The translations under genes and the position numbers were made by a program. Shown piece after piece: positions 29,148 to 60,200 of a DNA stretch of 64,000 bases (positions are counted from its first letter, which is position 1; every line of letters starts with the position of its first letter). The stretch is taken from NCBI GenBank assembly GCA_963969365.1, contig OZ017755.1, positions 2,170,001-2,234,000 of the forward strand, given 5' to 3'. Under the pieces are notes generated by a model, which did no database searches, was not told the origin of the DNA, and was given only the letters and a program-made list of their open reading frames with translations. The stretch is from Asterochloris sp. CNOR1 (Eukaryota; Chlorophyta; Trebouxiophyceae; Trebouxiales; Trebouxiaceae).

Positions 29148-29991
29148 CACAAAGCAACACGCAGGACACACACACACACTGACCCTGAATGTGTCCGGGC
29201 GCACAAGTGCAAAGCTTAACCACACTGACTGGGGCGGCGACCTGAGGCTGCTACACGACCAGGAGGCTGGAGTGCTGTGCCGCTCACCACCACCCACTTA
29301 TGGCCCCTATGAGACAGCACTGTGTAGACGTGTTCATCATTCCCACTCCTGGTCTGGTCCACATCACACCACTTCTGCTAGGCAGGAAACATCTTTTCTC
29401 ATTCCTGAAAGCTTGCTTCTCCTCACCCCTGCAAACTCGTCTGTCACGGTCGTCATGGTAGATAGATGTTTGTGTCTGTACATGTCCAACCCAAGTCCCA
29501 TCCAGAGCTCGGCCTCTGCTGCTTGTGACTGTGTGAGTCATGTGCAGCGTGTCATCATGTGTGTTCAAGCCCCTGCTCACGTTCCCGATGCTGCATACAC
29601 ACTGATGACATAGCCGGCAGCATTGCTGCATGGATGCCAGGACTCCTCCGCCAAATCATGGTTGCAGAGGGTTACGTGCCCCACCAGAAATACTTTCATA
29701 CACTGGACTGGCCTGTCAGGGGTTTGTTGACGCTTTGTAAGAGTCTTGAGGTCTCATGAAGTGCAAGCTTCTTAGTGCATGCTGTCCGCTGATTGGAACT
29801 GCAAAATAATGGCTTGGCTGGGTCGGTGGACTATCTCAAATTTATTTGCGTTTGTTCATGTCCTCCCTCGTGAAGATTCTGCAGCATGCATGGCAGAGTA
29901 CGGCTTAACAGCAACACCAGCTGATGTGATCTGCTGAAGAAGCCTTGCATGCCAGTGCATTCTGTGGCTGGTCCCAAATAGTGAACACTGC
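29148..29991. other. Convergent 3' regions of the RRM and EDR2-like genes
   Basis: 843 bp between two stop codons on opposite strands. It includes a CA dinucleotide tract at about 29165-29180 just after the RRM stop and no convincing coding sequence. It must hold both 3' UTRs. Confidence 0.6.
29736..29740 (+). terminator. Possible polyadenylation signal TGTAA for the RRM gene
   Basis: TGTAA, the usual polyadenylation signal in green algae, occurs 589 bp after the RRM stop and is the first copy I noticed on that strand. It implies a 3' UTR of about 600 bases. Confidence 0.4.
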
Positions 29992-32900
29992 TCAAGCCAC
30001 AATCAGGCAGACAATGATGGCTCGCCTCTGTTGGTCCTTTTCAAGGTAGGCGGCGGAGGTGAGGTCCAAACGGTCAAATCGCACTGTACCCAGCAGCCGT
30101 TCCGGCAGCTCCTCATCAGAGTGGCCCTCCAACAGGATGGCCATGTCTATGCACAGGCTGGTGGTGGCGCCCCGCACCAGCCCCACTGCACTGGCGGCAG
30201 CCCGGCTGCTGCCCACATCCACATCCACCTCAAAGTACCCAGGGCCTCTGCAGGGGAGAAGACTGGTCAGCCCTGCAGCTCTGCAGCAGCATGGCTCCCA
30301 GCGGAACACTCTACGCTGCTGACCAGCTGACCATCAAGCTGGCTGGGAGGGCTGGACAATTTCAATGCTGCCAGCCCAAGCCAGCAGACAACAGGCTAGA
30401 GGTGCCCCAGTGTAATAGCATGCATGGCATCTGCTGTAGGTCTCCTGCGCTGCTTGGCGACGGCTGGATTGCTGGCATTGAGCTGCTGGCTGCAGCTCTG
30501 GGGCCACAGGGGCAGTTGCAGGGCTGTTGGACTACATCACGACAGCACAGGCCTGCATATACAGGCTGCAAGGTGCAGGGTGCTGGAGCAGCTGAGCAGT
30601 TCCATCCGGACCAGCGCACACGGCACAGTAAGTGCAGGCAGCAGATTTTTCTGCCTTGATTTACGCTGTCTTGAACCAGAGCATAACTTTCTTCTGCTGT
30701 GCAAGCAGGCTGTGTGAGCTCTGCTGCTGGTGCCTCACCCACAGCTTTTCAGGCGCCTTTGTGACCATCCCCACTCCTGCATTGCTGCTGTTTGGAGACA
30801 CCCACCTGAAGTACTTGGTGGTTAGCTTTTTGCCCAGCATGACAGGCGTGTTACCCACGCTCTGCTTGATGACCCAGCTGCCGTGCACCACACTGGGGAT
30901 GAGCTTGAAGGAGCGGTGGCGGCGCTGCTCAGCTTCCCGATCATCCCCAGCCAGAAATCTGCACACCAGCCATCACAGGTGAAATGGGACAAGCAGAGTG
31001 CTGCAGGGCCATTGCGGTCACATCACAGGCGGCGGCTGCTGCTGTGATGCTCCTCAGCTTTGCGGTCATTGCTCATCAGGAGTGCACATTGGCATCACAG
31101 GAATGGGATGCTGCTCGGTATCGCGATGCCACTCAGGGCTCATAATGAGCCAGGTTCCTACACACTGTCTGTGGCTCAGACAGTATGAAGAAGCAAGTGA
31201 TACTCAGTATCCTGGTCGCTGCCAGTCAGAGATTACACACCTGCAAGGCAGAGAAAGAACACGCAGGCACTGCTCAGCCTCCTGGTCCCTGCCAGCCAAA
31301 GATCTGCACACCAGCCCTGAGGGCTGAATGTCAGGGATTGGGACTCTAGTGCTGCTCAGCATTGCAATGCTGCTCAGCAGTGCAGTCATTGCCAGCCGGG
31401 AATCTGCACAACACCAGCATGATGACCTACACATCGAGACCGAAAGAGCGCATGCTGTTTCAGCAGATACGGTTGGCCTGCAGGCAGTCAGTGTCCTCAC
31501 TGCCAATGCAGACTGCCCACATCAACACCTCCAAACCTGTGACAATGGCGCGCCTGGCCAAACACAGATGAGCAGAGCAAGCCCTGATGGGACATCGCCT
31601 GACCAACATAGGTCTGGCTGGCAAGCTGTCGTCCAACTGCACATAGCCAAGCGCGGGCCAAAAGGCAAGCCAAGCCGGGGCATTGCCTCGCCAGGCACAG
31701 GTCTGTATGGCGAGGTGTGGCGCCACAGCAGCTGACTCATCACAGCCCACCTGGCAAGCCGTGATGGGGGCCTTGCCTCGTCAGAAACTGCTTGCATGGC
31801 AAGCTGTGAGCAGTCGCAACTGGCCGAATCACACCAAAGGGCAAGCTGCGATGGGCTCGCCTCGCCAAGCTCGTACTGACATGTCAGGCCGTGACGCAAG
31901 TGCACCTGGCCAGGCAGAGGTCGAAGGGTGACTGCGTCAGCTCCGAGTCGGACTCCCCGTCAGGCCCCTCTGGGGACTTGGGGGTACCAGCGTCATTCAG
32001 GGCAGCCGAGGGGTCGTACTCGGCTGCCCAAGCCATGGTCAGGGACAGGTAGGGTGGGCCAGGCACCATCAGCTGCAGAACAAAGGTGAAGGGCGCCTTG
32101 CTGTTCCTGCACAGCAGGTACAGTCAGGGAAGTCACAGCTCGAACTGGTGGGGACAGGCCATAGGATACGTGGCTGCCATGTCACATGTCACACCATGAG
32201 GTTGCTGCTGGCCTGGAGCAGCAGCAGCCAGCTTGCTGAGAATGTGTGGCTGCTAGCTGCAGGGTGCAGGCCTGTGACGACAGGTAAACGATAGTGCCTT
32301 GCCAAGGCCGGCAGGCACAGGCCACATGCAGAATTGTCTCAGTTTGTAGCAGGTCAGAGCAGCAGGAAAAGCCAGATCTTATTTGGATGGAGCGCAGGTG
32401 CTGCACCACATGCAGTGTTGGGGGCCAACCTGCACAACAGGCCCTTGCCACAGTGCAGCGCGGCTGTGGTACCAACATGGGGCAGCGCTTGCCTGATGGA
32501 GAGGGGAAGCTGTGCCATGTGCAGCCTTCACACTGTGCCTGCCTGACCTGCGGGACACTCAGCGGCCAGCATCCAGCGGGGCTCACTTGAGATTGACTGA
32601 GGGCTCGCCTCCACCTGCTTGCTTTCTGAGCACCAAGGGCATGCCACAAACCCTGGTACCGGGCCGAACACATGTCAGGACTCACTTGATGGACGGCAGG
32701 TGCTGCGCCACATGCAGGGTGGGGGCATCCAGCTCCACCAGATCCACACTGACCAGCCCGAACACAGGCTCCTCAGCCATCACCTTCTTCTTGTCCTGCA
32801 CAGAAGTGATGGGACTCCTGGTGAAGGGCTGCAACGTGGGCATTCATCAAAAACAACTCAGGCTCCTCAGAGAATGCCTGGCTCTGATCCTTGGCAGGGG

Positions 32901-35900
32901 TGTGCCAGTCCCTGCCTTGTGGTACCGCCATCTGCTTGTGTGGACTGGGGCTGGCATGCTGGGGTTGCTGCTGCATAGTATGCAGGTGTCGTTGACTGCC
33001 CACAGCAGGAGGCAGGCCAAGCTGGGCGTACTGCGGCTTGGTGAGGTGTAGTGGCCTCAGTTGGCATAAGCTCAGGTGTACACAGCTGCAGAGCCCCACC
33101 TGCACAGGGTGGCCCAACCTGTCCTGCTTGGATGCTGCTGACACAATGCCAAGCTACTATATGCTCTGCTGGTACACTGTTCTGGCAGTCCATGAGGCAG
33201 CTGCAGCATCTGGACGTGACAAGTGTTCAACTCAAAAAGGCCACACCTGCATGCATGGCACTCTCCTCAACAGAAGGGACACCCAGAAGGACATCCTGAG
33301 CTGCAGTCGCATGCACAGACGCACCCGCAGGTATGTTGGGCCCCGAATCTTGTACCCTGCTGCCCCTGGGCAGCTCCAGTATCGCTGGGCACACGTCCCG
33401 CGGGGCCACAGATTCTCAGCACCGCCTGCTGGCGCGGGGCCAGCGCTGGGCGTCCCCCCTGCAGGCTTCAGAGCAGCACCCTCAGCGGCAGTGCCGCCGG
33501 CTGGGGCTGCCGGGCTGGCAGTGCCAGCTGTCGCACGCACACTGATCCCCGCAGGGGCTGGGTGCCCCTTGCCCGCCTCAGTGGATGACCTGCGGGGCAG
33601 CAAGGGCTCATCGCACCACACAGATGCGTGGTGGTGCCCCTTGCCTGCCTCTGTGGCACTACAGCAGCGCATGCAGTGCTGCCTTGCACATACAGGGGAA
33701 GACCTGCCCTGGGGCCCGCCTACCCAAAGTTCTGCGGGGCGGCCAGTCTGGCTTCGTGACGCAGGCAGCGATGCAGGCACAGTAAAACAGGTTAAACTGC
33801 AGAGTACAATGTGAACCTGCCTCCTAGCACAGATCAGCACGCAAAATGCAGCGTGCAGCATGCGCAGCAGGTGAGACAGCAGGCAGTATCCTCTGCACTG
33901 TGAGACACATCTGGCAAGAACGAGATGGGAAGGTGAGCTCTGCCGAAGCCCTTGAAGGGTAAACTTCTCTGCCGAAGCTTTCTTGAAAGGGGCGCCATGG
34001 GGCACTACCCAACAGGAGGCTCACCTGGCCTGCACGAACATGGAGGGCGAGCGCACGAGCCCTGAGCCGGCGGCTCCCGTGCCTGATTTCTGGCGGCCGA
34101 GGAAGTCTGCACTGCGCTCATAGGCGGCAGGGTCACTCTGCTGCCCCAGGTTGAAGGGCTTGACTACGAATCGCTCCTGCTCCACCTGCGGCAGGCAAGA
34201 CGCAGCTTGGGCATAGCTGCTGACCGCAATGCTGGACATCTGCGATTTGAAGGGCCCTGTGGCTGTTCTGGCAGACTCCCAAGGGCTGGGGACAGAGAGA
34301 TTCCTGCTCCACCCTGCAACAGGTACAAGACAGAAAGCTTCAGGAATGCCCAGGGTCATCCCTGATGGCAGCTGACCGTCAGAAGCACGGCTGCTGCCCC
34401 CTTCTGCTGCTCCTTGGTGAGGGGCTTGATCACAACTTACTCTTGCCCCAACTGCAGCAGGAGAACCTCCAGGTCTGGAGCCGTGACTGGCTGTTGAGTC
34501 CTAAGGAGCTGCATGCCTCACTTGCTCCTGAATCCTGGTCTTGCTGCTCACAGCAGGCACACCAAGGAGGTGTACACAGTCTGCCCTGGGCCCTAGTGTC
34601 CAATACGGGTCCTCACAGGGCACAGCTCCGCTTCAAAGCTTTCTCATGTTGTTGCCTCACATCAGGCTGGCTGTTCATGCCTTCTGCCTTGCAGTTAACA
34701 ATTGACGGGTACCGGTGCTACTACGCCTGTAGGGCCCATGATGCAGGGCCAACCCTACCTGAGGCCTTCAGATGTCCAGCAGACATGAGTAGCTGCTTTT
34801 CAAAGTTGGTGCACATGTCATGAATAGCACTGCTCCCAGATCATGCAACGCTCCCAACTCATACACTAATTGGCACAATGGCCATCTGCCTCCCATCATT
34901 ATCGATAATATCATTGACACAAGCAGCTGCTCCCTGATGTTGGATTTCAGTTGCAGCGTAGTGGGCAGACTGCCGCTGCAAGCGCATGCAGTAACCAACA
35001 TGTTTTAACATGCTGACTAAGCAGCAGCCCTTGCCAGCTTCTCCCCCAGAGGTATCACAGAGCAGCAGCCCCTGGGTGCTGCAAGTTTGGTAAGATGGCA
35101 CACTGCCATGGAAGGCAACACCATCATGCGAACCCTTGGACACAAGCAGCAGTGGCCTTTCCCTGGCACACTTGCGACACGATCAGTTGCTACCTGGATG
35201 GAGCATTCAGGCGCCGTGTGATGGGTGCCAGCGTCCAAGCCATACGTTTGGGGAACCCCCTTGAACAGCAGTTACCAGCCAGCCCCTCACCTTGTCCCTC
35301 AAGAAGACCACCGACATGAGCAGCTGCTCCACAAAGTTGGCGTTCAAGCGCTGCGTGATGGGTGCGAGCGCCCAGGCCATGCGGCTGTGGTCCCCGAGCC
35401 ACCCTCCCAGGTCCAGCTTGAGCACGAGAGTGACCAGGCACTCCTGAGATTCCCCGTTGACTGTGTAGCGTTGCTGCAGGGGGCAAATGGTGTACCCAGC
35501 TGCGGCAATCTGCAGGGCAGCAGGGGTATACATCAGCTGCCAAGGAGCGATGCTATTGCTGATGGGCAAGCATATGCCTGGCCGCAGCAATCTGCAGGGT
35601 AGCAGGGGTTGCACAACTGCTGTATAGCGCAGCGCAGCTGCAGCGATGCAATGGGGCTCCAATCTGCAGGGTATCACGGGCTTGCATGCGCTGCAGGAGC
35701 ACTGCACTTAGTCTCTGTGTGTTTACTGTGCAGGGGGGGAATGGTGTACCCATGGGATGGGACAGGGACCAGCTCAAGGGCGCAAATATGGTGCAGTGCT
35801 GCTGTCAGGCCCCTACCTGGCCCCTTGTAATTGCAGGGTGTGGCCAGCGTTCAGCTGTGCACAGTCACAGTGCGTATGCATCTGAGGGGCATCATGGGTC

Positions 35901-38900
35901 CTTTCGGCTGGCTGCGCATGTGCAGTTTGAGGCGGGCTTAGGCAGGCGGCTGCAGCAACATGCACGGCGCCAAAACATCAACGACGTCATTTACCTGTGC
36001 CCGGACTGGCTGCCACCAGCTGCCAAACCAGGTGCGGGGCGCCTCGCGGGCGTAGCGGTGGCGTGTCGTGTGGAACAGCACTATGACAGTGCCATCCTCC
36101 TCCTCCCGCCAGGTCTGCTCCACAACCATCTCACGCGGGGCACACACCTGCACAGCAACTAGCCAAGTGGGTGTGTGCACACAGGCAGTGCCTGGGCTCC
36201 ACCATGGTTTCAAGGGGGTCCACAAACCTGCAAAGCTTCCAGTCAGCTGCGCAGGTTCGTGACAAGAGCAGTGTCTGGGCTGGCTGCACCATGCTGTCAC
36301 CGGAAGGGGCTGCACCATGATGTCATGTGGGTTGCACCCCTGCAATGTGGAGCAAGCGAAGGGCAACAGTGCCTGGTTGAGCATGTTCTGGGGGCTACAC
36401 ACACCTGAAAATCGAGCAGCTGCAGGAGTCAACGCAAGTTTTGCAGAGGGGAGATGACTTGGCCGCTTGCTGCCATGCCTTGCTGCCTGATGATGCTGCC
36501 TGATGCAGGCTGGCTGTGCACGGAAAGATTGTACTTTCTGCAGCAAGTCTGCTGCCTGACGCTATCACTTCACTGCCAGCCGGCTGTGCAGCAGATGCGA
36601 GCTCATGCTTGAAGGCAGCCGCCTCCCCAACAGCAATCAGCTTTGCTCAACGGCCTGGTGGCAGACGCCCAGCCTGCAGTCGCACCTTCCCTGCAAGGCC
36701 TCCAGAGGGGAACATGGCGCCCATGACCACCCTGCACTGGGCGTCGAGGTTCTCCAAAACCTGCATGTTGGCTGCAGATGGCGCCTCCTCATCTGCAGTA
36801 TCAGTGCTGAGCAGAGCCTGCAGAAGCAGGGCAATGGAGATCACTTTGCTGCTGTCAACCTGTTGCCTGCCAAGCTTCGGGCACTCGCATGGGGAAGTGC
36901 CTGCAGCACCCTGACCTGGGGACTGCAGCATGCACCACGTTGCAGCCAAGTCGCAAGCTCGGCAGAGGGTGGTCCAGAAATAGGCCTGTGCATGTCAGCC
37001 AAAAAGAAGTTGTCAAGGGGACTTGGCTGGCCAGGGCTGAACTGTCACACACCTTGGCGCTGGCGCAGACAGCAATTGCAAGAGCTGTGAAGGCCCCTCC
37101 CTACCTCAAGGGTGATCCCACAGCACCATCTCTTAGGCCCACAGCCTTCACCAACGTGCAGCCAAGCCTGACATAAGCTCTGAGTGTGCAGCCCTGTGCA
37201 CCATGGCATAGGCCTGCAAAATGGACTCTAGGGCAGTCCTGGGCCTGTGGCCTGGGACTGCCAGACGTTGCAATGTGCCTCCTTGCAATGCCATTTGGTG
37301 TGCTCCCCCTGACAGAGATCACAAGAGCCAGCATTCAGGACAATGGCACAGCCCAGCGCACCTTGGCGCAGGCCCGTGGCGTGGAGCGCACGACAGCGGA
37401 GATCATGAAAGCGCCCCCCTCCCCGTGGGGCCCGGCCTCCTCCTGGTAGACCGCCACGCCGTTCACGTGGCGCAGGGAAGCCCACTTGCGCTTGGGCTGG
37501 TGGATGGGGCCCACCTGGGGGGACTCATCTGCACGGGCAGAGTCTGCAATGGAAAAGGCTCAGGGATGGACGACAGCACGCTGACGTGTCTCATCAGCGC
37601 TGGCGGGTTGTTTGTAGCATGCTGAATCATGCAGCTAGCGCGGTGCGCAGTGCGCCAAGAAGGAGTTTCATTAGGTGAGGCGTGCAGCTAGTGGCGCTAG
37701 TAAGCATTGCTGCCGAGAAAGCAGAGATGCATCCGAGCTTTGCCACAGTATAGGACAAGAGCCAGCAAAGTGGTGGGCCCCCAGAAAGCAAGAGTCAGGT
37801 GCATCACCAACACAAATTCACATCACTTTTGGCCCTAAGCTCTGCTGCTTAGCAGCCAGAAGCAGGCATGCAGAATTGTAGGCTGACTGCCAGGCCAGTA
37901 AAGACACAGGCACATCAGCTGGTGGCCATCATGACTGCTGACCTTGCCTGGCCGGATACAGAGTGTACACAGTCTGTGCTGTGTGGCAGGCTGGACACCT
38001 GGGGCAAGAAGCCTGGTTCAGCCATAGTCTGCTACCCTTACCTTCTGTTGACTTGGTGCCTGCTAGCGAGGCACCTCTGATGCGCAGCGCTGCTGCCTGG
38101 CTGTCAGTGTTTGCCAGTGGCATGAACTGATCCTGCAGGGCCCAGGCACAGGATTCAGCACATGGGAGGCTTATGCCAGAACTTGCTCTGCAAAACTTGG
38201 ACGGGGTGTGCATGCACATGTCAGGCTGGCTGTCTCCTCTGCGACCTTGACAACATTCAGTCGCATGCACTGAGGTGCTTGACCGGGGCAGCAGAGTGCA
38301 CACAGGTCAGTTGCTGACATCTGGAGAAGGACTTCAAGGCAGAAGGTGAAAGGGCTGCAGTCAGTGGTGAGCTGCTGCTTGAGCCACTCACAGTGACCCG
38401 CGGCGTTGAGGTGATGGCTGGTGCTGGCACTGACGGCCGCGAGGCGCGAGGACTGGCGGACCCCAGGGGCGAAGAGTTGAGGGCTGAGCCTATCCCGATG
38501 CTTCCAGCTGCAGCTGCGCACAGCAGCTGAGACAACAAGGGCGCTGGCAGCCAGCAACTGTGCACAGTGTGCTAGCTGCACTTTGCAAACAGTACACACA
38601 GAGACACTCCCCAGGAAAATACCCCTTTAAGGGTTTGGCCAGCACATACAGTTTGTAAGCCAAGAGTACAGGGGTCAGGGGCATGGCACAGCTGGCACAG
38701 AGTTGGCAGGTGGTGCAACAAAGCAGAGGATCTCTACAGGCAGAAGGCACTGTGCACCAGGCGTCCGGGGCGTGGCGAAGCTGTCTGCCGGGCTGGCCAG
38801 CAGGTGGTGGGGCAGCGCAGACACGCTGGCTGTCCGCAGCCGCGATGCCTCGGGCATGGCGGATGGGGCGCTGCCCTCGATGCCCTCCTGGAGGTCCAGG

Positions 38901-41015
38901 ATGCCCTGCCGAATAGCCTGGCGCCACCTGCAGAGGCAGGGGTGCAGTGAAACATGCTGCAGGCCATGAGTTGGCTTCAGCGCCACCACTGAAGGGCCTA
39001 CCAATTCTAATGATGATGGCCTGATGCCCCCAGCAGGGCAGAAGTGTTGATGCACAGCAATTGTTGCTGACAAGCCATGTGGCTGTCCCCATCTTTACTG
39101 TCACGAGAACTGAGTAGAGCTGCAGATATCCTGCGGGTAGCACATGGCCTGTCAGTCAGCCTTCTTGCCACCGACGAGCTACGCAATGTCCTGCGGCCGC
39201 CCTGCTGCAGGCAAAATGTTTGGCAGTCTTCGCAACATGGGTGCAAAGCCTGCCCATCCGCATTATCCTTGTGGAGACACTGATGAGCCGCAACTTTCCC
39301 ATTGCAGGAGTAGGCACCTGGCAGCCCCCACAGCATGGCTTCAAGGCGTCTGATGCTCACCCTAGCCCATGATGCACAGGGCTTCAAGTCAGATGCAGGC
39401 CCTGCACAAACCATGTCTTGGTGGCATGCCTGGCAGCATCCTCTTCACAGAGAACTTGGTGGACCTGAAGCCCAAGGCAGCTCCCCAACATGGCTAAAGG
39501 CCTAACCACAACAGAACACCTAGTCCACTGCAGGTCAGGCACCATGCAATCCACACAACAAGCACTGAGAACTTGCCTGTCAGCCTCCTCCTGCTCGTCA
39601 AAGCACAGCTTGAGGTCGTCCTTGCTGAAAAAGTGGTAGCTTGGCCACTTGATGGTGAAGCACCACTGCAGCAGCAGGGCGAGAAGCTGTCAGCTGTGCT
39701 GCTGGCAGCCTGCAAAGCTACAACCGTGCCAGCCAAGCAGGTGGTGCACTGCGCTTCCACTGTCAGTACATCATGACCTCAAAGTTGAAGTGTGCCTTGT
39801 CACTGCCTGGCGTTTGCAGGGATCGCCAGGGGCATGTCAGCTGAGCACAAGTGCATGACTATGGCTCAGGTGGCAACAAGCCTCACATGCTGAGCGACAT
39901 GTGGGTGCTGCGCAGCCACAGACACTGCACAGCATCAGGTGCTCGCCTGCTGCTGCTGCCCACAAAGCCTATACAGCAAGGGCCCAGATGCTGCTACTGT
40001 ACAGGTGATTGCAATTTAGGGCCGCTTCACGTTCATGCATGATTTCAGAACACGCTTTAACAGCTTCTTCTCGCAGCCGTGAACGGTGTGCAGATGGCCC
40101 TGTACTGCCCCCAGGTCTCGGATGAGCAGGGCAGGCTTAAGCTCAGCAGCTGCTGCTTCTTGGAATGCTCCACGGCACGGACCCAGACGACCTATGTCCC
40201 TCAATTCATGTCTCTGCAAGCTCACCAGCTGTTTCTTCTCGTAGTGCCCCGCAGCCAGTGCCCAGATGGTGGACGTGTGCCGGTTGCGAATCATGACCTC
40301 CTTCCGCTCCACCGAGCTCAACTTGCAGTGCCCGTGGAGCGGCCACACCTTGGAGGGCTCGCGGGAACCCTCCTTGCGGAAGGTGACAAAGCTGTGGCTG
40401 AAGAGGGAGCCCCATCGCCGATTGCTGATGCCGGAGACCACCCCGGACTCTCGATACACCCACCCGCTGAGCAGGGCCAGCTGGGGCTGAAAGTCCGCTG
40501 AGCTGCGGCTGTCGCTCCTGCATGCACGGGGGAAGGGGGTGGGGTGTCACGCAGCCTAGCTGCAGACGGGCCCTTCTGGGTCCGGCAGCATGTGGGGATG
40601 CGCACTGAGCATATGTCATGCGCACAACACCGTGCGGCTGCGCAGACTGACAACAGAATGCAGTAGCATGCCACAGCTGGCCCTGTGCTGCAGCAGTAGA
40701 TTGCAGGTGTGTCCTGCAGACTGCTGCACATATGAGCAAAACAGGTGGTGTTAGCATTGCGCATTGTGCTGCCAGGAACCATACTGAGGTATGGTCTGCT
40801 GACCTGAGCATTGCCGCAGAGCTGCAAGCATATCAGAGAGGTACAAGGTGACACCTCATGCAGCACATCACTTCTGGCAATGATCGTGCGATGCCTTCAG
40901 GACCGGTCCCGAGTATGGCAAGCCCGGTCAGCATGTCCCGGAGCTCCACCGGGACCCACCTAGACTGCACTCTGGGCGAATCCATCTTCTCCAACCGTGC
41001 ATTGTCTCTCGACAT
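29992..41015 (-). CDS. EDR2-like protein: PH + START + DUF1336, 872 aa, complete
   Basis: Lipid-binding regulator of the plant ENHANCED DISEASE RESISTANCE 2 type. Sixteen exons join in phase: 41015-40960, 40517-40226, 39665-39577, 38927-38758, 38507-38392, 38132-38042, 37543-37362, 36817-36686, 36147-35995, 35509-35291, 34185-34025, 33589-33325, 32795-32686, 32106-31933, 30958-30806, 30247-29992. The PH domain (about 30-158) begins GWVYRESGVVSG and closes with FTIKWPSYHFFS and a WRQAIRQGILDL helix. START (about 275-500) runs from WASLRHVNGVAVYQEEAG through VEQTWREEEDGTVIVLF to SLVTL-like CLVTLVLKLDLGGWL. DUF1336 (about 630-860) has YKIRGPTYLR, FTFVLQLMVPGPPYLSL, FKLIPSVVHGSWVIKQSVG, PGYFEVDVDVGSS and HSDEELPERLLGTVRFDRL. 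Arabidopsis EDR2 dampens salicylate defence and binds PI4P; an alga may use it in membrane-lipid signalling. Intron 3 begins GCAAGT. Several introns carry diverged copies of neighbouring exon edges. Confidence 0.92.
30925..31418 (-). repeat. Exon echoes: diverged copies of the exon-15 acceptor region in intron 14 of the EDR2-like gene
   Basis: The authentic exon-15 5' edge lies in plus-strand 30925-30972. Copies sit upstream in the intron at 31270-31317 (about 80% identical by eye), 31370-31418 and, weaker, 31202-31243; a trace occurs near 31111-31137. Shared cores include CTGCTCAGC and ATCTGCACA. A translated copy still resembles the exon (LAGRDQEAEQ against LAGDDREAEQ). Confidence 0.8.
31545..31930. 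repeat. Degenerate tandem repeat beside exon 14 of the EDR2-like gene
   Basis: Diverged units containing GGCAAGC(T/C)GTGATGGG and TTGCCTCGCCAG recur about four times between 31545 and 31910, next to the exon-14 donor at 31933. A relation to the exon-14 edge (CTGGCCAGGCAGAGGTC) is suggested but weak. Confidence 0.5.
32383..32427 (-). repeat. Exon echo of the exon-13 donor edge in intron 13 of the EDR2-like gene
   Basis: Plus-strand 32383-32427 matches 32686-32730 (exon 13 3' edge) over about 45 bp with few mismatches; a core shared by both is GCAGGTGCTGC. Confidence 0.75.
33632..33658 (-). repeat. Exon echo of the exon-12 acceptor edge (EDR2-like)
   Basis: About 26 bp at 33632-33658 repeat 33559-33584 at the start of exon 12 (GTGCCCCTTGCC then GCCTC/CTGTGG). 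Short, so less certain than the others. Confidence 0.5.
34416..34461 (-). repeat. Exon echo of the exon-11 acceptor edge (EDR2-like)
   Basis: 34416-34461 resembles the exon-11 start at about 34148-34195 (GGGCTTGA..ACNA..TC..GC then ACCTGC/ACTGCAGCAGG). A second, weaker copy may lie at 34290-34330. Confidence 0.55.
34782..35752 (-). repeat. Exon echoes on both sides of exon 10 (EDR2-like)
   Basis: Downstream intron: 35206-35253 copies exon interior 35343-35390 (TTCAAGCGC..GTGATGGGTG). 34782-34815 copies the region of the exon 3' edge (GACATGAGTAGCTGCT; exon GACATGAGCAGCTGCT), and 34916-34945 is a weaker copy. Upstream intron: 35577-35603 copies the acceptor edge (CAATCTGCAGGG), and 35726-35752 copies 35470-35498 (AATGGTGTACCCA). 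The authentic exon occupies 35291-35509. Confidence 0.7.
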
Positions 41016-42128
41016 GGCCCCTTATTTCTGATAGAAGATGGAAGCCCCCTCCCTGGGCTCGGGCCACCTGACTTCACCTGCCACGAAAATCTGACCTAAG
41101 ATATGAAGAGAAGCCTTGGTTGATGTTGCTGACTTCCCTTCAATCTGTCTGGCGGTACTCCTGTCACCTGGTGACCATGCTGTACCGCCGGCCCTGTCTT
41201 GCAATAGTTCGTGAGCAGGGAGGGCATGTCATGGCACACATGAGTCAGTGCATGCGTCTGCGAGGATCATCAACAGTCCCTGACAGCAACCACTCGCGAA
41301 GTGGAAAGTTTGAGGGGCATGGCTGGAGTCCAGTTCAGTGCAACTAAGGTCTTGAAGGCTTGTGACTCATGGGACATGGGCATGCTGCATCACTCAAGGC
41401 ATTGCTGCATGTTGATGTGGACTAGGGGAATAGGCGGCGCTTCAAGATCTGAAGCTCTTGGAGATCATTGACTGAAAACATATCAGCAAATCCAGTTGGG
41501 CCCCCATACATTGCTCCACCCTGTCCCTCCGCACCATGCTCTGAGGCGTGCCAGTCATTGATGACATTGGGCCTCGACTCAATGTGCGCCATGCATGCCA
41601 TATGGCTGGAGTAAGAGGGCCAGCTGCCTTCTGCTCTTCCATTTTTCCGGCCACAATTTCATATGGCCTCATCCGCCAAAATCAGCGCCAGTGCTGTTGC
41701 ATCATCCAGCCGGTAACAAGTCAACTCCTTGTTGCCAGCTCTGGTTGATTCAAGTATTCGTCATGCAGCTAAGTCCATCACAAGTCACCAAGCAGACGAC
41801 TTTTAAAGCTCCACATGTGCATCCCAGTTTACCCCTGAAAGGCATGTATTCAGGACTCTGGACCGTGTTGCAAGACATGGAAAAGAGGCAAAGCTTCATG
41901 CTTCTCAATGCTGTCAACAAGTCGAGTGTTCTCAGTTGCTCATACTCTAGTCAGTGAAAGACAGCAGGACTGAGGAGGTCATGGCAGTACAGCTGGACAT
42001 GTCTTGAAAGCGGGGGTTTTATTGCAGGACGTCTCCTGGGTAGCACTGGAAGTGCTAACAGTTCCTGCTACTACAAGGTAGCTTTGACAATGGTGGTCAC
42101 ATGTACGCAGCAGGGCTAGCGCTCTGCC
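41016..42128. other. Intergenic region upstream of the EDR2-like gene with one small ORF
   Basis: 1.1 kb between the EDR2-like start and the stop of the next minus-strand gene. It should hold the EDR2-like promoter. A 76-codon ATG frame on the minus strand (41672-41442) begins MRPYEIVAGKMEEQKAAG; it resembles nothing I know and has no splice partners. Otherwise nothing is visible. Confidence 0.5.
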
Positions 42129-48754: not shown

Positions 48755-50842
48755 TCAGACCTGCTCTAGATTGCTTTGGGACTCAGAATGGGCGCTATCC
48801 TCAAAGCCAGAGTGTTTCTGAAGGTTGTCTGAATGCTGCATTCCCTTCTGAGACTGTGCTGCTGAGTTGGTCGACCTACTGCTGGAACTGCTCCGGCTGA
48901 CCCTGGGCCAACCCTGTGTGGCCTTGACGTATGCCAGCGGCCAGCACACCAGGCAGAGTTCCAGCAACTCTGGCAGGGTGTTGAGGGGATACCTGCAGTA
49001 CATGCCTGAGCAAATAATGCCACTGTCGACCATGCACATGACTGCTGCTGTGCAACTGTGGTCGATGTTGGCAGCTAAGGTTACAATGAGACAGCAGTCT
49101 TGAGATGCAGTCTGCCGAACAGAAATGAGGCAGTCAGCAGCCCCACCAGAGCCTGTCCTGGCGAAAAAAGTTCGGGCGATAAACCCCAACCAGATTGAAT
49201 GTGCCACGGCATTCCAACAGGAGTGCGCTGACGGTCAGCAGCCAAATCTGCAAACAGCAGTATAGGGCAGTATAGGGGTCGGCAGTGGAGCATGTGTCCA
49301 GGCCAGCCAGTGTACGAATTGCTGCGAGCTGCCAAGCAAAATCACACCAGGGTGAGCTCATGTTTGCAACGGATGGGTCGCTTGCATACCAGCTTGGGTT
49401 GGCGATTGGGGTGACCAACATCAAATTTCATTGACTCTGGCTTGGCTCTGGGCTTCCCCCAGGTGACCAGCATGCTTTCGACCACTGAAAGCACCAGTGT
49501 CACTGTGTTGACAGTCCAGAGCCCCTGCAGCACATACAGCAGGTCTGCCTGAAGGGAGCACTGCAGCGGTCTCAGTCCAGCACATGCAGCAGGTTTGCCA
49601 AGTGGGGGCACTGCATCGGTCTCAGTCCAGCACCAAAACCAGGTCTGCCAAAGGGAGCACTGCACTGGTCTCAGCAGAGTGACAAGGCAAAGCACATTGC
49701 CCAGGCCTCCGCTAGCCCAGGGAAGACCTTCCAGCCGCGGTGGCTGCTGGCCAACAGCTGCAAGCATGCAACGAGCAAACTCACCCATGATGTCGCCACT
49801 CTGCAGCGGACGCCGGCCTGCCATGACCCCACACAGCAGTCATATGCTCCATACATCAGGCCAGCCGCCACCACCCCACAGAAGGGCCCAAAGGCCACAA
49901 GTGGGATGATGCAGCAGAAGTGGAAGGTGCGCAGCGCCGTGTGCAGGCGCGGCGGCATGTACAGCATGTCAGAGCGCACCATCCTGCAGGCAGCAGGCAC
50001 TGCTGCTGTGGGACAGCACCCTGCAACACGCTGCCCAGCCACCGTGCACTTGTGACACGAGACCTCCTGGAGGAGTGGCTCCAGCACCGATGCTGTGTGG
50101 TGACAAAGAGAGCAACTGGCCATGTGCAGGAGCATGTCACGTCATAGCATCCCCATTCTCACCAAGAGCCCTGAGCAACCACTAGCGCCGCCACACTCGC
50201 TCCGTAGCCTGCAGCCAAGTGGTGCAGCAGCTCTCGCAACTGGACCAGGCTGCAATGGGCTCTAGCCATTATGCCAGTAGCACAGGTGACCCAATGCTTG
50301 TAGTGCCCATTACCCACCTCCATTGCCAAATGCCAGAAATACCCCCTGCAGTGCTGGTGAGTACTGTTGCAGGTATGCTGCCCGCGCTGCATAGGCGATC
50401 GCTCTGAATAATATGCTAGCCACAATGAAATCATAGTAACCATACCTGCATTGCACAAGGGCCTGAGGCGTCAGATGCATGGGCAGCAATTGGCCACAGC
50501 AACATGCCCATGTGACATGAGAGCTTGGCAGCTCAGCCTCTCAGGAGGCTGCCAGGAACACAGAGGCTGCAGGTCGTGCCCCTACTTGGAAATGCAAACG
50601 CTCCTGCAGGCATGGAGCGTCAGGCCTTGGCAGTTGGATTGGCAGCAACATCCTGGGCAACCATTGGGCTGACCCAGATGCCAGCAATACAACGCTGGAA
50701 CCACTTACGGAGCAGTGGGCACCATGAAGAGGAAGAATAGGCATGATGTGACAATGGCTGCAGCTGTGGACTGGCCTGCCGCTGTGTTCGCGAATTTGTA
50801 TGCAAATTCGGCATCTGTCAAGCCTGGCTGGCTTGTGCTCAT
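48755..50842 (-). CDS. Seven-helix integral membrane protein, 334 aa, RTA1-like in its C-terminus
   Basis: Seven exons join in phase: 50842-50709, 50445-50318, 50208-50163, 49983-49785, 49548-49390, 49247-49147, 48992-48755. The ATG at 50842 gives a short soluble N-terminus, then helices around AAAIVTSCLFFLFMV, FIVASILFRAIAYAARAAYL, FLAFGNG/YGASVAALVVA, FHFCCIIPLVAFGPFCGVVA, TVNTVTLVLSVVESMLV, IWLLTVSALLLECR and PELLELCLVCWPLAYV. The tail is Ser-rich and acidic, probably cytosolic. The segment ECRGTFNLVGVYRPNFF followed by LWYPLNTLPELL recalls the last loop and helix of fungal RTA1-like transporters/receptors, but I cannot confirm homology. No signal peptide. The gene lies just upstream of the LINE. 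The function is unknown. Confidence 0.7.
49528..49660 (-). repeat. Three tandem 50-bp units, the first overlapping an exon acceptor of the seven-helix gene
   Basis: Units begin at 49528, 49578 and 49628, exactly 50 bp apart, with cores CAGCACATACAGCAGGTCTG, CAGCACATGCAGCAGGTTTG and CAGCACCAAAACCAGGTCTG. Unit 1 covers the true exon edge (exon starts at 49548). In units 2 and 3 the AG of the acceptor is replaced. Confidence 0.9.
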
Positions 50843-51604: not shown

Positions 51605-53023
51605 ATGTTCACCCGCGGCTCTCGCACCTCGTCCAGAGTTAGCGGGGGCACCTCCGAGGGCGCCCCTGCAGCGATGCCGCCTCGAGCAGGCCGCAAGGCC
51701 GCGCCAGAGGCGTTGACCATGCCTCGAGAGCATAGGCCACGAGCGTCGAAAACGGCTGCCCCCACAGCGTCCGAGCAACTCAACCCCCCTGAGCTAAGTA
51801 CCATTGATGAAAACGCTGTCAGTCAGGCTGCACCTAGCATGGCAGTAGTGCATGATGTTGCAGAAGGGAGCACTGTAGATGTGGAGACTGTAGTTGAGGC
51901 TGCAGCGGGGAGCATTGTGCCTGTGGAGGCCGCAGTTGAGGAAGCAGGCGCCAGTGTGGTTGAGGAAGGTGAATGGCCTGCTCCCAACTCCACCCAGAGC
52001 AGCCCTGCTGCACCAGCTGATGATGCTGCTGCAGAACTTTCAACACCAACAACAACACCGAGCGATGACCGAGGGGAGATCAGCAGCCTGCAGCTGCTGG
52101 TCACCCAGCTGCTGCAGCAGAACAACCAGCTGCTGCAGCAGAGCAACCAGCAGCAGCAGCAGATCAACCAGCTTGTCGCCCAGCGGCAGGCTGACAAGCA
52201 GCAGCAGGGTGCTGAGATCCAGCTGCTGAAGCAGCAGCAGACTGCTGAGATCCAGATGCTGAAGCATGAGGTCGCCAGGCTACGCGACGATGTGGGCAAA
52301 CGGAGCAGCCACCAGGACCAGGCTGCCAGCTTGGAGAGGGCAAACACACAGCTGGCCGCTCTGGGCCGGGACGTTGAACAGCTGCAGAGGCAGCAGCCAA
52401 AGCAGGCTCAGCGGACTGGGGCGGAGACCCACACAGCCATACCTGGGCAGCAGGCCCGCCGAGGCAGCCCAGGCGTGGCTGATGATGCTCATGGAAGTAT
52501 TGCGCATGAGCGTGCCCATAACTTCCTGCTGCACAGATTTCCTGAGGGTGCAGAGAACGAGCAATGCTTAATGCAGCTTGTGGAGGGTGTTGTGCATGGC
52601 GATCTGGGGGTGAAGGGAGTGGACATATTAAGTACCAAGAGGGTCAATGGCCAGAATCCAGCCTCCCCGGTGCTTGTGCAGGTTGGTGACGCCGCCCAGT
52701 GCATCAAGGTGCTGCGAGCTGCCAGTCAGCTGCGACACAGCACACGCTACAAAGGAGTGGGCCTCACGCCAGACCTCACAAAGCAGCAACGCGAGCACAA
52801 GCAGAAGCAGTGGGGGACGTACCTGTCTCTCAAAAAGCAGGGCTACACAGTGTGCTTCCACGGGGACGCCCTGGTGATGTGGAACAACAAGCAGTGGATG
52901 CCTATCCAGCCCCCCACTGGCCCGCCGCCACCGCCGGCGGGGCCACCGGCGCAGCCTCCAACCCAGACATCACCTGTGCCACAAGCACAAGTGCCTGGGC
53001 CACCCTCTGAGAGGGCGGCCTAG
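51605..53023 (+). CDS. LINE ORF1 protein, 472 aa from the first ATG
   Basis: Predicted RNA-binding chaperone that packages the element's RNA. The start is the first ATG (MFTRGSRTSSR, basic). Residues ~1-60 are Arg/Ala-rich, ~60-155 acidic and low complexity. Residues ~160-270 form a long coiled coil of Gln/Leu heptads (LQLLVTQLLQQNNQLLQQ) that should trimerise as in L1 ORF1p. Residues ~300-410 are a folded domain with HNFLLHRFPEG, GVKGVDILSTKRVNG, VLVQVGDAAQCIKVLRAA and GVGLTPDLTKQQREHK, comparable to the RRM-like/C-terminal domains of plant and algal L1 ORF1 proteins. The tail is Pro-rich. It ends in a single UAG, and ORF2 continues in the same frame. Confidence 0.85.
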   Translation: MFTRGSRTSSRVSGGTSEGAPAAMPPRAGRKAAPEALTMPREHRPRASKTAAPTASEQLNPPELSTIDENAVSQAAPSMAVVHDVAEGSTVDVETVVEAAAGSIVPVEAAVEEAGASVVEEGEWPAPNSTQSSPAAPADDAAAELSTPTTTPSDDRGEISSLQLLVTQLLQQNNQLLQQSNQQQQQINQLVAQRQADKQQQGAEIQLLKQQQTAEIQMLKHEVARLRDDVGKRSSHQDQAASLERANTQLAALGRDVEQLQRQQPKQAQRTGAETHTAIPGQQARRGSPGVADDAHGSIAHERAHNFLLHRFPEGAENEQCLMQLVEGVVHGDLGVKGVDILSTKRVNGQNPASPVLVQVGDAAQCIKVLRAASQLRHSTRYKGVGLTPDLTKQQREHKQKQWGTYLSLKKQGYTVCFHGDALVMWNNKQWMPIQPPTGPPPPPAGPPAQPPTQTSPVPQAQVPGPPSERAA

Positions 53024-57225: not shown

Positions 57226-60200
57226 TCACTTGATGTTGCGAGCACGCTCCACCAGCAGGCGGCGCCCGTTCCACTCGCGCCCGTCCATGTGGCGAACGGC
57301 CTGCACCAGCGAAGCACATCATTGCCAGCCAAGCCGCTATGGTACAGCACACACGATTGGGGACGAGGACTCAGTGCAGATACAGAGGTCACAACCGCCT
57401 GCAGCAGGCAGCAGTTTGCTTGGGCCAGCCTCACTGTGCCCCCGCTGCCCTTGCTCTGCTCAGGACAGCAGCGGGGACCACCCAGGGCACAAAGCAGGTG
57501 TGAGAGTGAAGTCCAACTGTGCAGCAGGGAGCAGCAGGGTGAGAGGGACACAGGGCAGGCAGCATGCAGTTGAACAAGGACTGATTTTGGTGGCTGCTTG
57601 AGGTGCAGCACTATGCAGAGAAATTCAACAACAACAGTGCCCTCAATCCGCGCTAAGTGAGTGGCGGGCCCAGCCAGCCTGCCAGTGCATCAGCATTACA
57701 GGCTGCGTCCTGGAAAGCTCAAGCTGCCAAGGTCACCCTGTCAACATGATCATCGTGCCCCATGGCCACAGAGCCCGATCCCTTGGACACAAGCAGCCAG
57801 ACAGCACAACAGAGAGCGTATCCAGAGATGAACAGGGCTCACCCTGTCCACCTCATCATCAAGGTTGGCATCAAAGCCATATGCTTTGGACACAAGCAGC
57901 CAGACAGCATAGGGAGCGTGCTCAGTCAGTCAGTGGGGCTCAGTGAGCCCCCTCACCTCTCAAGCACAGCAGCAGCAGCACCTGAGGGTCTCTCCCGATG
58001 TGGCTGCCCTGCGCCCATCTCCACTGCGGGTTCGGCAGAGCAGGACCTGCACAGGGCAAGCCTGGGGTGGCCAGGCGGTCTCACCCTGTCCACATCATCG
58101 TCATGGTCCATGACCACAAAGCCAAAGCCCCTGGACTCGCCAGTGCGCGGATTCCTCACAATGCGCGCGTCCCGCACCTTACCATATTTGCCAAACTTAC
58201 GCTCCAAGTCCTGCAGGGCAGTGGTGGGTATGAGTGTTGCTGCCAGCAAGATGCAGAACAGCCAGACAGGGCAGACTGCTGCAGCAGAGCAGCCCATACA
58301 GGGCCTCACAACATAGACTCTGTATAGCAACTTATCATTCTTGCCGGAGAAGGACGTCTGCACATCAGCCAGGTATGTGGTGCAGAGGTGGCAGAGAGAA
58401 GTGCCAGCGGTTGCCAGCATGTTGATCTGTAGCTGCTTCCTCGCTGATGTGGTGGTCAGTGAAGCAGCACAGAGGCTCAAGGTGCATGGGCCTTCCTGTG
58501 ACAAGACCTAATGGACGACTTCCTTCCTCCAGAGGCCTGCTGATATCCCGCAAGCCGCAGCGTGGCAGCCAAGCAGGACAAGCGGATGCGCATAACAATG
58601 CCACCATGCTGCCTCGCAACACCCTGACCACAAAGTGGTCACAACAGGCAGCCTGCAACCCGACTGCATGGCCTGCTGCGCTCACCCTCTCGTTGACAAT
58701 GAAGTTGACACCAGCCACAAATAGGTGCAGCCCGGTGGCAGGGGGCGGTGGCCGGCTCCGAGGGGAGTACCGGCGTGGTGGCGGAACTGGCGACCTGCAG
58801 CCAGCACCGAGGCAGCCTCGCGAACAGGTGCAGCCCAGTTGCAGAGGCAGCAGCTGACTGCAGGAGAAACAGCAGTGCAAGGACAGGACCAGCGAGCTGC
58901 AGGCAGCACCCAGGCAGGCTCAGTGGGGCTGGGGATAGTCGAGGCATCCTTGCAGTGCATCTGCAGACTGTGCAGAGTTATGACGGCTCCTTTGGGTCGG
59001 GCGAAAGGCAGGCTCGCTTTCATGATTGTCCCCAGCAGCTGGCTGCAGAGGAAGCAATGGCATATTAGCAGGACCGGTGACCTGCAGACAGCACCCTGGC
59101 CGGATCAGCTTCAGGCCCCCAACTCCAGCTGTACATCCTTTCAGAATAGCCTGCAGGGCAGGCACGGTTTGGTGTGTGCCAAGCAGGCGCAGCTCCTGGA
59201 CAACAGCGATTCAATGAGGGATGGTTTAACTAGCCTTTCAGGCAGGCCCCATCAGGTGCAGCCCAGTAGCAGGGGCAGCAGCTGGTCATGCTACAGGCCT
59301 GGGGCAGGATTCAGGGCCAGGCAACAAGCGGCAAGCCTGATTGGAAGCAGGGAAACTTGCATGGAGCTTGGCTTCTGAGACACAGTGCGTGCAGGAAGCC
59401 AGCAGATATGCTTCTGCAAGCAGCAGCATAGCTGCAGGCTGAGGTGGTGTGCAAGAACGGACATAACCTCAGCTCAGCAGTGCATGCAGTGAGTGCAGGC
59501 AGGTCCCCTGCAGGCAATGTGCCTTGAATGCGGCTTGGCAACTAAGTGGCGCCTAGTGCTGCAGCACCACCCCCACTGGCTGAGCCGGATGGTCTCAAGA
59601 CGATTTGACTGGCTTCCCTGTATTTCAGTGCAGCACATATCTCTCAGCCATGACAAGCAACACGCACTTGACCACTCCTGCGCCGCCAATTCTCTGCTGC
59701 TGGGGCTTATGTTCCTGGCTCACAGCCAACCCTACACAGCAACAAGTGCTGTCGGCCCACCTGCTGCGCCGCCGCGCATAGCGGTCGCGATCGTAGCGGT
59801 CGGCATTGCGGTCGCGTGATCTCTCCCTGAGCGACCCCCTGCTGCGGCTGCGGCGCCTGGTGTCACCCCTCACCCTGCAGGGCAAGGAGCAGAGCTCTGG
59901 GAATCGCATGCATGAGACTTGGCATCCTGGCTCTAGGAATGCAGGCTGAGTCGAGCAAGCAGCAGCGCAATGCTGAGGGGCCATGAGACAAGAGGCAGGG
60001 GGCTGGCGGGCGCCAAAAGTCGTGCAGGGCAGGGTCGCAACAAGGAGGGCGCAGCATGCATAGCGGGTGCACGCGAGCGCGCTTCTGCCTGTGCTGTGTG
60101 CACTGCAGCCCGGCAGCTACTGGGAAGTATTATACAGGGAGCTGGCAGTACTGGACAGGCCCTCTGGGGAGTGGCCACCAGACAAATCAAAAAGCGAGCT

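Follow-up and report, generated by a model that had tools for sequence, protein, structure and literature searches.

The introns of an EDR2-like gene of the green alga Asterochloris sp. CNOR1 carry diverged partial copies of the edges of neighbouring exons, and this locus raises the question of how such copies arose and whether they are peculiar to this gene. The gene occupies positions 29992-41015 on the minus strand of the window, that is, the whole stretch of 64,000 nucleotides analysed here (contig OZ017755.1, our C10:2170001-2234000; GC content 58%), which belongs to a 56.4-Mb genome assembled in 21 contigs. The copies very probably result from ordinary small tandem duplication, whose traces would stay recognisable at exon edges through conservation of the exon copy.

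Copies of exon edges in the EDR2-like gene

Exons extended by 15 bp were aligned to the introns on either side, and the matches were compared with those of 1000 dinucleotide-preserving shuffles. Direct matches were present in 8 of the 30 exon/intron sides, each equalled by at most 8 of the 1000 shuffles: the 3′ sides of exons 2, 4, 10 and 13 and the 5′ sides of exons 10, 11, 12 and 15. In the inverted control none of the 30 sides reached the level of 10/1000, the best inverted match being equalled by 34 shuffles. The same alignment test gave no copy at the 8/1000 level for exons 1, 3, 5-9, 14 and 16. The first-pass annotation had described partial intronic copies of exons 10, 11, 12, 13 and 15 and had proposed a comparison of exons and flanks with introns and a shuffled control; all five exons were recovered here, together with exons 2 and 4. 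The copied source touches the exon border in all the significant sides except that of exon 12, where it stops 5 bp before reaching the border. Scanned without gaps, the region 29500-41400 yielded 14 direct and no inverted repeats with a score of at least 19.

The best pair (30925-30972 and 31270-31317), for which an identity of about 80% had been estimated, is identical at 38 of 48 positions (79%) and extends to 63 bp (30921-30983 and 31266-31328). Its first member had been equated with exon 15, which holds up to position 30958, while 30959-30972 already belongs to the intron. The annotation also spoke of one to several copies per exon, and up to three per edge were indeed found at exons 10 and 15. 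Those of the exon 15 edge were all detected by the ungapped scan (Table 1); the 5′ part of exon 10 is copied near 35581, 35660 and 35729, and its 3′ part near 35203, 34902 and 34782.

Sequences that are rich in GC and share splice motifs may resemble one another by chance. Random matches in GC-rich introns were a caveat already raised in the annotation, and CTGCAG-like acceptor motifs are frequent in these sequences. However, the CTGCAG acceptor core is palindromic and hence present in the inverted control too. For the copies as a group, chance is ruled out by the shuffles and the inverted control, and its probability as their explanation is negligible, although single weak pairs may still be fortuitous.

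Table 1. Positions in the window of the EDR2-like gene, its exon-edge copies and related features.
Feature	Position	Strand	Remarks
EDR2-like gene, 16 exons, 881 aa	29992-41015	-	spliced frame without internal stop; Pfam EDR2_C
Exon 15	30806-30958	-	gene model; frame and paralogue alignment
Copy of exon 15 5′ edge and acceptor	31266-31328	-	source 30921-30983, lag 345; ungapped score 33; 0/1000 shuffles
More diverged exon 15 edge copy	31182-31233	-	pairs with 31252-31303, lag 70; score 24
Additional exon 15 edge copy	31369-31413	-	pairs with 30924-30968, lag 445; score 23
Candidate 63-nt in-frame, stop-free cassette exon within exon 15 copy	31241-31303	-	predicted acceptor 5.6, donor 7.6
Intron-only direct pair	31607-31769	.	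31607-31680 and 31696-31769, lag 89; score 20
Copy of exon 13 3′ edge	32373-32462	-	source 32676-32760; 0/1000 shuffles
Copy of exon 12 5′ part	33611-33656	-	source 33531-33584, ends 5 bp inside exon; 8/1000 shuffles
Copy of exon 11 5′ edge and acceptor	34403-34461	-	source 34137-34195; 0/1000 shuffles
Exon 10 3′ part, copy three	34782-34809	-	pairs with 35313-35340; score 20
Exon 10 3′ part, copy two	34902-34965	-	pairs with 35299-35362; score 24
Copy of exon 10 3′ half	35156-35258	-	source 35290-35395; 0/1000 shuffles
Copy of exon 10 5′ edge	35556-35606	-	source 35471-35524; 2/1000 shuffles
Exon 10 5′ edge, copy two	35660-35694	-	pairs with 35506-35540; score 19
Copy three near exon 10 5′ edge	35729-35752	-	pairs with 35475-35498; score 20
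Copy of exon 4 3′ edge	38669-38727	-	source 38758-38821; 0/1000 shuffles
Copy of exon 2 3′ edge and donor	40139-40187	-	source 40218-40266; 1/1000 shuffles

The gene model was obtained by a self-trained gene finder combined with frame checking, and the exon numbering of the annotation agrees with its 16 exons. The protein joined from the exon pieces, with exon 12 absent from the query, matched the Pfam domains EDR2_C (172.6 bits) and START (24.9 bits); the PH domain (20.9 bits) stayed under the cut-off. At exon 3 (position 39577) the frame demands an end before GCAAGT, which corresponds to a GC instead of a GT donor. Exons coding for EDR2_C occur at four places in the genome (8 matches). In the paralogue on C4 (L021, 1842-2086), three direct copies about 90 bp apart lie on the acceptor side of exon 9, and short echoes of exon 10 are also present.

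Local direct duplications and their position at exon borders

The occurrence of similar repeats elsewhere was studied in a sample of 19 stretches (190 kb), comprising 18 stretches of 10 kb, one per large contig, and one paralogue stretch. Direct and inverted pairs were counted by an ungapped scan (score of at least 19, lag 20-800). The whole window contains 44 direct and 2 inverted short-range pairs, and the sample 177 and 4, respectively. The number of direct pairs per stretch ranges from 0 to 39, with at least three in 18 of the 19 stretches and none in the C2 stretch. The annotation had treated the pattern as a property of the EDR2-like gene. This view had to be abandoned, since the density in the region of this gene (14 pairs in 11.9 kb) is close to the sample mean. 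Of 460 introns, 106 are touched by local direct pairs and 6 by inverted ones. Direct pairs far outnumber inverted ones where the lag is no more than 800 bp, and between 1501 and 3000 bp this excess has vanished (1 direct and 4 inverted pairs in the sample). A 6-kb stretch around the C12 paralogue gave two direct pairs and no inverted one. In 50 kb of Escherichia coli K-12, used as a bacterial control, neither orientation was found at lags up to 800 bp, and lowering the score to 15 gave 7 direct and 3 inverted pairs. Small tandem duplications are most likely common across this Asterochloris genome.

Exon borders were analysed in 49 predicted genes from the window and the sample (254 kb), with 440 exons of at least 40 bp and 460 introns of at least 60 bp. 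Predicted genes with fewer than 450 coding bases, exons below 40 or 45 bp and introns below 60 bp were left out of the counts; the test of 742 exon/intron sides, made with 200 shuffles per side, also left out intron sequence lying over 900 bp away from the exon. In this test 46 direct matches scored above every one of the 200 shuffles, as did 4 inverted ones, where about 3.7 were expected, and at the looser level of 1/200 shuffles the matches were 54 and 12 (7.4 expected). The sources of these 54 direct matches lie at most 2 bp from the border facing the copy in 28 cases and at most 10 bp in 44, while uniform placement would give 3.6 and 9.9. Because a duplication that ends in the exon and in the intron must have its source at the facing border, this position argues for tandem duplication and not for a targeting of borders.

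A further screen, modelled on one designed for birds, gave 15 direct matches and one inverted match in proximal introns at 32 bits or more, and none in one shuffled set. Distal introns, which offer a 6.4 times larger search space, gave 5 and 3. Nevertheless, the borders are not the sole place of duplication. Intron-intron pairs make up 61 of 204 pairs (82.8 expected under shifted annotation), and exon-exon pairs 36 (26.4 expected). Hence, from the proposal of the annotation that introns grow by repeated tandem duplication across exon-intron borders, the local direct duplication spanning borders is retained, and its restriction to these borders is not.

Extent, decay and possible origin of the copies

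The lags of 112 repeat clusters peak at 60-140 bp (48 clusters); 77 are shorter than 200 bp and 35 are of 200 bp or longer. When gaps are allowed, the similarity extends over a median of 0.95 of the lag, versus 0.47 with shuffled flanks (173 partly non-independent pairs with lags of 60-600 bp and both flanks at hand). A similarity covering nearly the whole lag indicates that complete neighbouring units were probably duplicated, in many cases more than twice. At the borders, similarity runs on significantly into the intron in 24 of 44 events (at most 2 of 40 shuffles), about 3 being expected. Tandem Repeats Finder alone is nearly blind to this pattern, with 3 rows in the EDR2-like gene region and 82 arrays in the 254 kb. 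Tandem-repeat coverage of the 460 introns has a median of 0 and a mean of 1.5%, and any array is present in 8.9% of them.

Several points weigh against tandem duplication as the general account. The lags at exons 11, 13 and 15 are large (266, 302 and 345) and the matches span 50-90 bp, which is less than a whole period. Among 33 ungapped pairs with at least 90% identity, the match reaches 0.8 of the lag in only 7, so that the copies of many young short pairs do not plainly adjoin each other, and 20 of the 44 border events lack significant continuation past the border. The 12 inverted matches at the 1/200 level are a little over expectation. At the published threshold of the bird screen (42.1 bits), the excess is slight (4 direct and 1 inverted matches in proximal introns, 2 and 3 in distal ones), and that of exon-intron pairs is modest (84 of the 204 pairs against 67.7 expected under shifted annotation). 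The gene models beyond the EDR2-like gene were predicted from DNA alone by our own self-trained finder. Moreover, the evidence comes from one genome of one individual, in which events at birth are not visible. Our confidence in tandem duplication, although high, is set slightly lower because few near-identical pairs are plainly adjacent.

The same 7 of 33 pairs favor templated insertion, in which exon fragments would be copied from nearby templates during break repair and no tandem duplication would take place. Some near-identical short pairs are separated by a gap that exceeds the match, for instance 21 bp at a lag of 97. However, templated insertions are expected in inverted orientation too and from exon interiors, whereas inverted matches here are near background and the sources lie at the facing border. 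For these reasons we consider templated insertion improbable.

The decay of the copies bears on whether they could be real duplicated or alternative exons overlooked by annotation. In 54 events, mismatches amount to 22.4, 22.9 and 24.9% at the three codon positions, and the length of just 25 of 167 indels is divisible by three. By comparison, the three codon positions of the coding paralogue exon 15 pair, with 51 sites each, differ at 11, 11 and 27 sites. Taken together, the copies decay like non-coding DNA and are not hidden exons: the even mismatches and frame-breaking indels rule out missed coding exons as a general account, and coding constraint, the hallmark of tandem duplicated alternative exons, was not found in them. 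It is also observed that third positions are barely more diverged than first and second ones, and synonymous sites of the exons may change slowly relative to introns.

With respect to splicing, the annotation had stated that the copies include the splice junction but usually not a working site. Among 36 border-exact copies in the sampled genes, 15 still have the AG or GT (acceptors 6 of 14, donors 9 of 22), and the copy of exon 15 has an intact acceptor; therefore, the statement applies to part of the copies only. A purging of splice sites was considered and rejected, since identity at the two splice bases (0.64, 0.56) is similar to that of the adjoining positions, which is 0.69 and 0.64 towards the exon and 0.56 and 0.58 towards the intron. 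There is no sign of either purging or special retention of the splice bases.

In favor of real exons, the exon 15 copy yields an in-frame, stop-free cassette of 63 nt whose acceptor score (5.6) is close to that of the real exon 15 acceptor (5.8). Such candidates (both scores at least 5, 30-250 nt) are rare, with three in the 15 introns of the EDR2-like gene, two of which share the donor of 31241-31303. As judged from its sequence, this segment could be a nascent cassette exon. For the copies in general, the third-position and indel evidence makes overlooked exons a very improbable explanation.

The mechanism that we propose starts from frequent small local tandem duplications in the genome, with lags mostly of 60-140 bp, and each event would have been a tandem duplication at birth. 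If a duplication spanned an exon-intron border, a complete exon with its splice site would usually still be usable and the gene would remain functional, while the intron would acquire a copy of part of the exon together with its splice junction. This intronic copy, presumably without function, would decay freely while the exon stayed under selection. As a consequence, exon-edge duplications would be recognisable for longer than intron-intron ones and would look like echoes of the exon. Recurrent events and later insertions between copies could generate several copies per edge and longer lags. Of the pairs that join either an exon to an intron or two introns, the exon-intron ones make up a share of 0.41 at 90% identity or more and of 0.49-0.62 below, which is consistent with a conserved exon copy that keeps old events visible, and the slower decay of the exon copy would explain the pattern; however, this age trend is weak, not monotonic and based on small numbers, which also counts against the proposal. 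Judging from the literature considered below, the cause may be the repair of DNA breaks or nicks.

Relation to known systems and further repeats

The annotation considered the pattern of many partial edge copies undescribed, a claim that has been overtaken by Hron et al. 2026 (PMC12954441). As far as the available part of that report goes, partial exon-edge copies with splice sites occur in adjacent introns of chicken dot-chromosome genes, a phenomenon called exon stuttering, and gerbil genes are named as a further case. In chicken, 190 of 5,572 dot-chromosome introns are positive, and 190 of the 236 positive introns are on dot chromosomes. Copies have a median number of 4 and reach 44, tandem-repeat coverage has medians of 7-93% per dot chromosome, length polymorphism is present, and the source lies at most 1 base from the exon border in over 90%.

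The algal copies share with this avian pattern the direct lateral copying of exon parts with the splice site into the adjacent intron and the intact coding exon. Partial direct copies above a shuffled control were found here too, as described above for the 742 sides; their sources tend to lie at the exon border, a trend that is clear but weaker than in chicken. Sequence stuttering as in birds, that is, an active GC-linked instability of introns that repeatedly expands short blocks including exon edges and varies between individuals, would account for this common anatomy and for the 4 of 460 introns that pass the screen at 42.1 bits (15 of 460 at 32 bits). In contrast to birds, the alga has few and diverged copies, up to three per edge at exons 10 and 15 as counted in the EDR2-like gene only, and they occur in nearly all sampled stretches. 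Furthermore, its introns are not filled: heavy tandem-repeat coverage was looked for in the 460 introns and was not found. Because of this last difference, we regard the pattern as operating like exon stuttering with few copies and do not assign it to that phenomenon, and an avian-type instability appears an unlikely cause.

It is conceivable, although we hold it to be somewhat doubtful, that stuttering, beyond bird microchromosomes, is the conspicuous part of a wider regime in which the introns of this alga grow by successive local tandem duplication, the exon edges serving as tracers that date and count the events and candidate cassette exons (31241-31303) being supplied on the way. The copies described here link the bird pattern of 2026 to a distant lineage and to an ordinary mutation, the small tandem duplication. 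With one copy being a conserved exon, edge copies may preserve a record of old duplications that can no longer be recognised within introns. If this clock holds, intron growth by tandem duplication would become measurable in a single genome, and decoy splice sites and new exons are predicted.

Other reports describe related processes. According to the accessible text on Exonize, applied to 20 genomes, matches of exons to their own introns represent unannotated or degenerate exons and are commoner than full-exon duplications, and partial and intronic exon duplications are common. The exons studied here likewise match introns of their own gene. However, Exonize seeks duplicated exons by exon coverage, and short edge copies, orientation and border position are not treated in that text.

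In rice, tandem duplications are the commonest insertions, enriched at 50-200 bp and declining above 125 bp (PMC7971508, in its available portion, citing Vaughn and Bennetzen 2014 and Schiml 2016). The lag peak found here resembles these patch-repair duplications, and the copies are direct and adjacent as patch or nick repair would have them (177 versus 4 pairs; 0.95 versus 0.47 of the lag), yet few young pairs are plainly adjacent without gaps. The rice events were polarised between genomes, whereas here diverged products are seen in one genome and in nearly a third of the clusters the lag is at least 200 bp. In human and mouse cells, small tandem duplications have been tied to fill-in synthesis at break ends (PMC8355091, abridged text).

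The primary mutation, tandem duplication of a gene segment, is the same as in intron gain by tandem genomic duplication, reviewed in PMC3443670 (citing Gao and Lynch 2009 and Hellsten 2011). Nevertheless, in the part of that review considered, an exonic segment gives rise to a new intron, while in the alga partial exon copies are added to introns already present. Introner elements (PMC9860276; in Micromonas, PMC4815162) are likewise a genome-wide source of intron sequence but, in the sections available, are described as dispersed over many genes, in contrast to the local copies of this alga. Introner-like dispersal was rejected for the exon 15 region: a 625-bp query (30806-31430) matched two places in the genome, its own locus and a paralogous exon, in a search of this one query that skipped very common words. 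A similarity search of the window against E. coli gave no match. In the open-licence literature, the titles and beginnings of abstracts among the matches listed contain no algal report of exon stuttering, vestigial exons or intron growth.

Further features were noted in the material analysed. The predicted genes are intron-rich (504 introns in 49 genes), and the acceptor consensus of the self-trained model, derived from the 254 kb, is strong (TGCAG; T 0.90, G 0.94, C 0.97). Exons of light-harvesting proteins have 31 matches in the genome. The maximum of 39 direct pairs at a score of at least 19 belongs to the stretch L007 (C5:400001-410000), which also contains a 265-bp unit in two copies (94%). 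In the window, direct repeats are densely clustered in another predicted gene (57733-59284), where the exon at 58085-58210 has a copy at a lag of 348. A 50-bp unit is present in three tandem copies with 80% matches at 49528-49674, and short-period repeats of 21-42 bp lie within a predicted coding region at 52075-52266.

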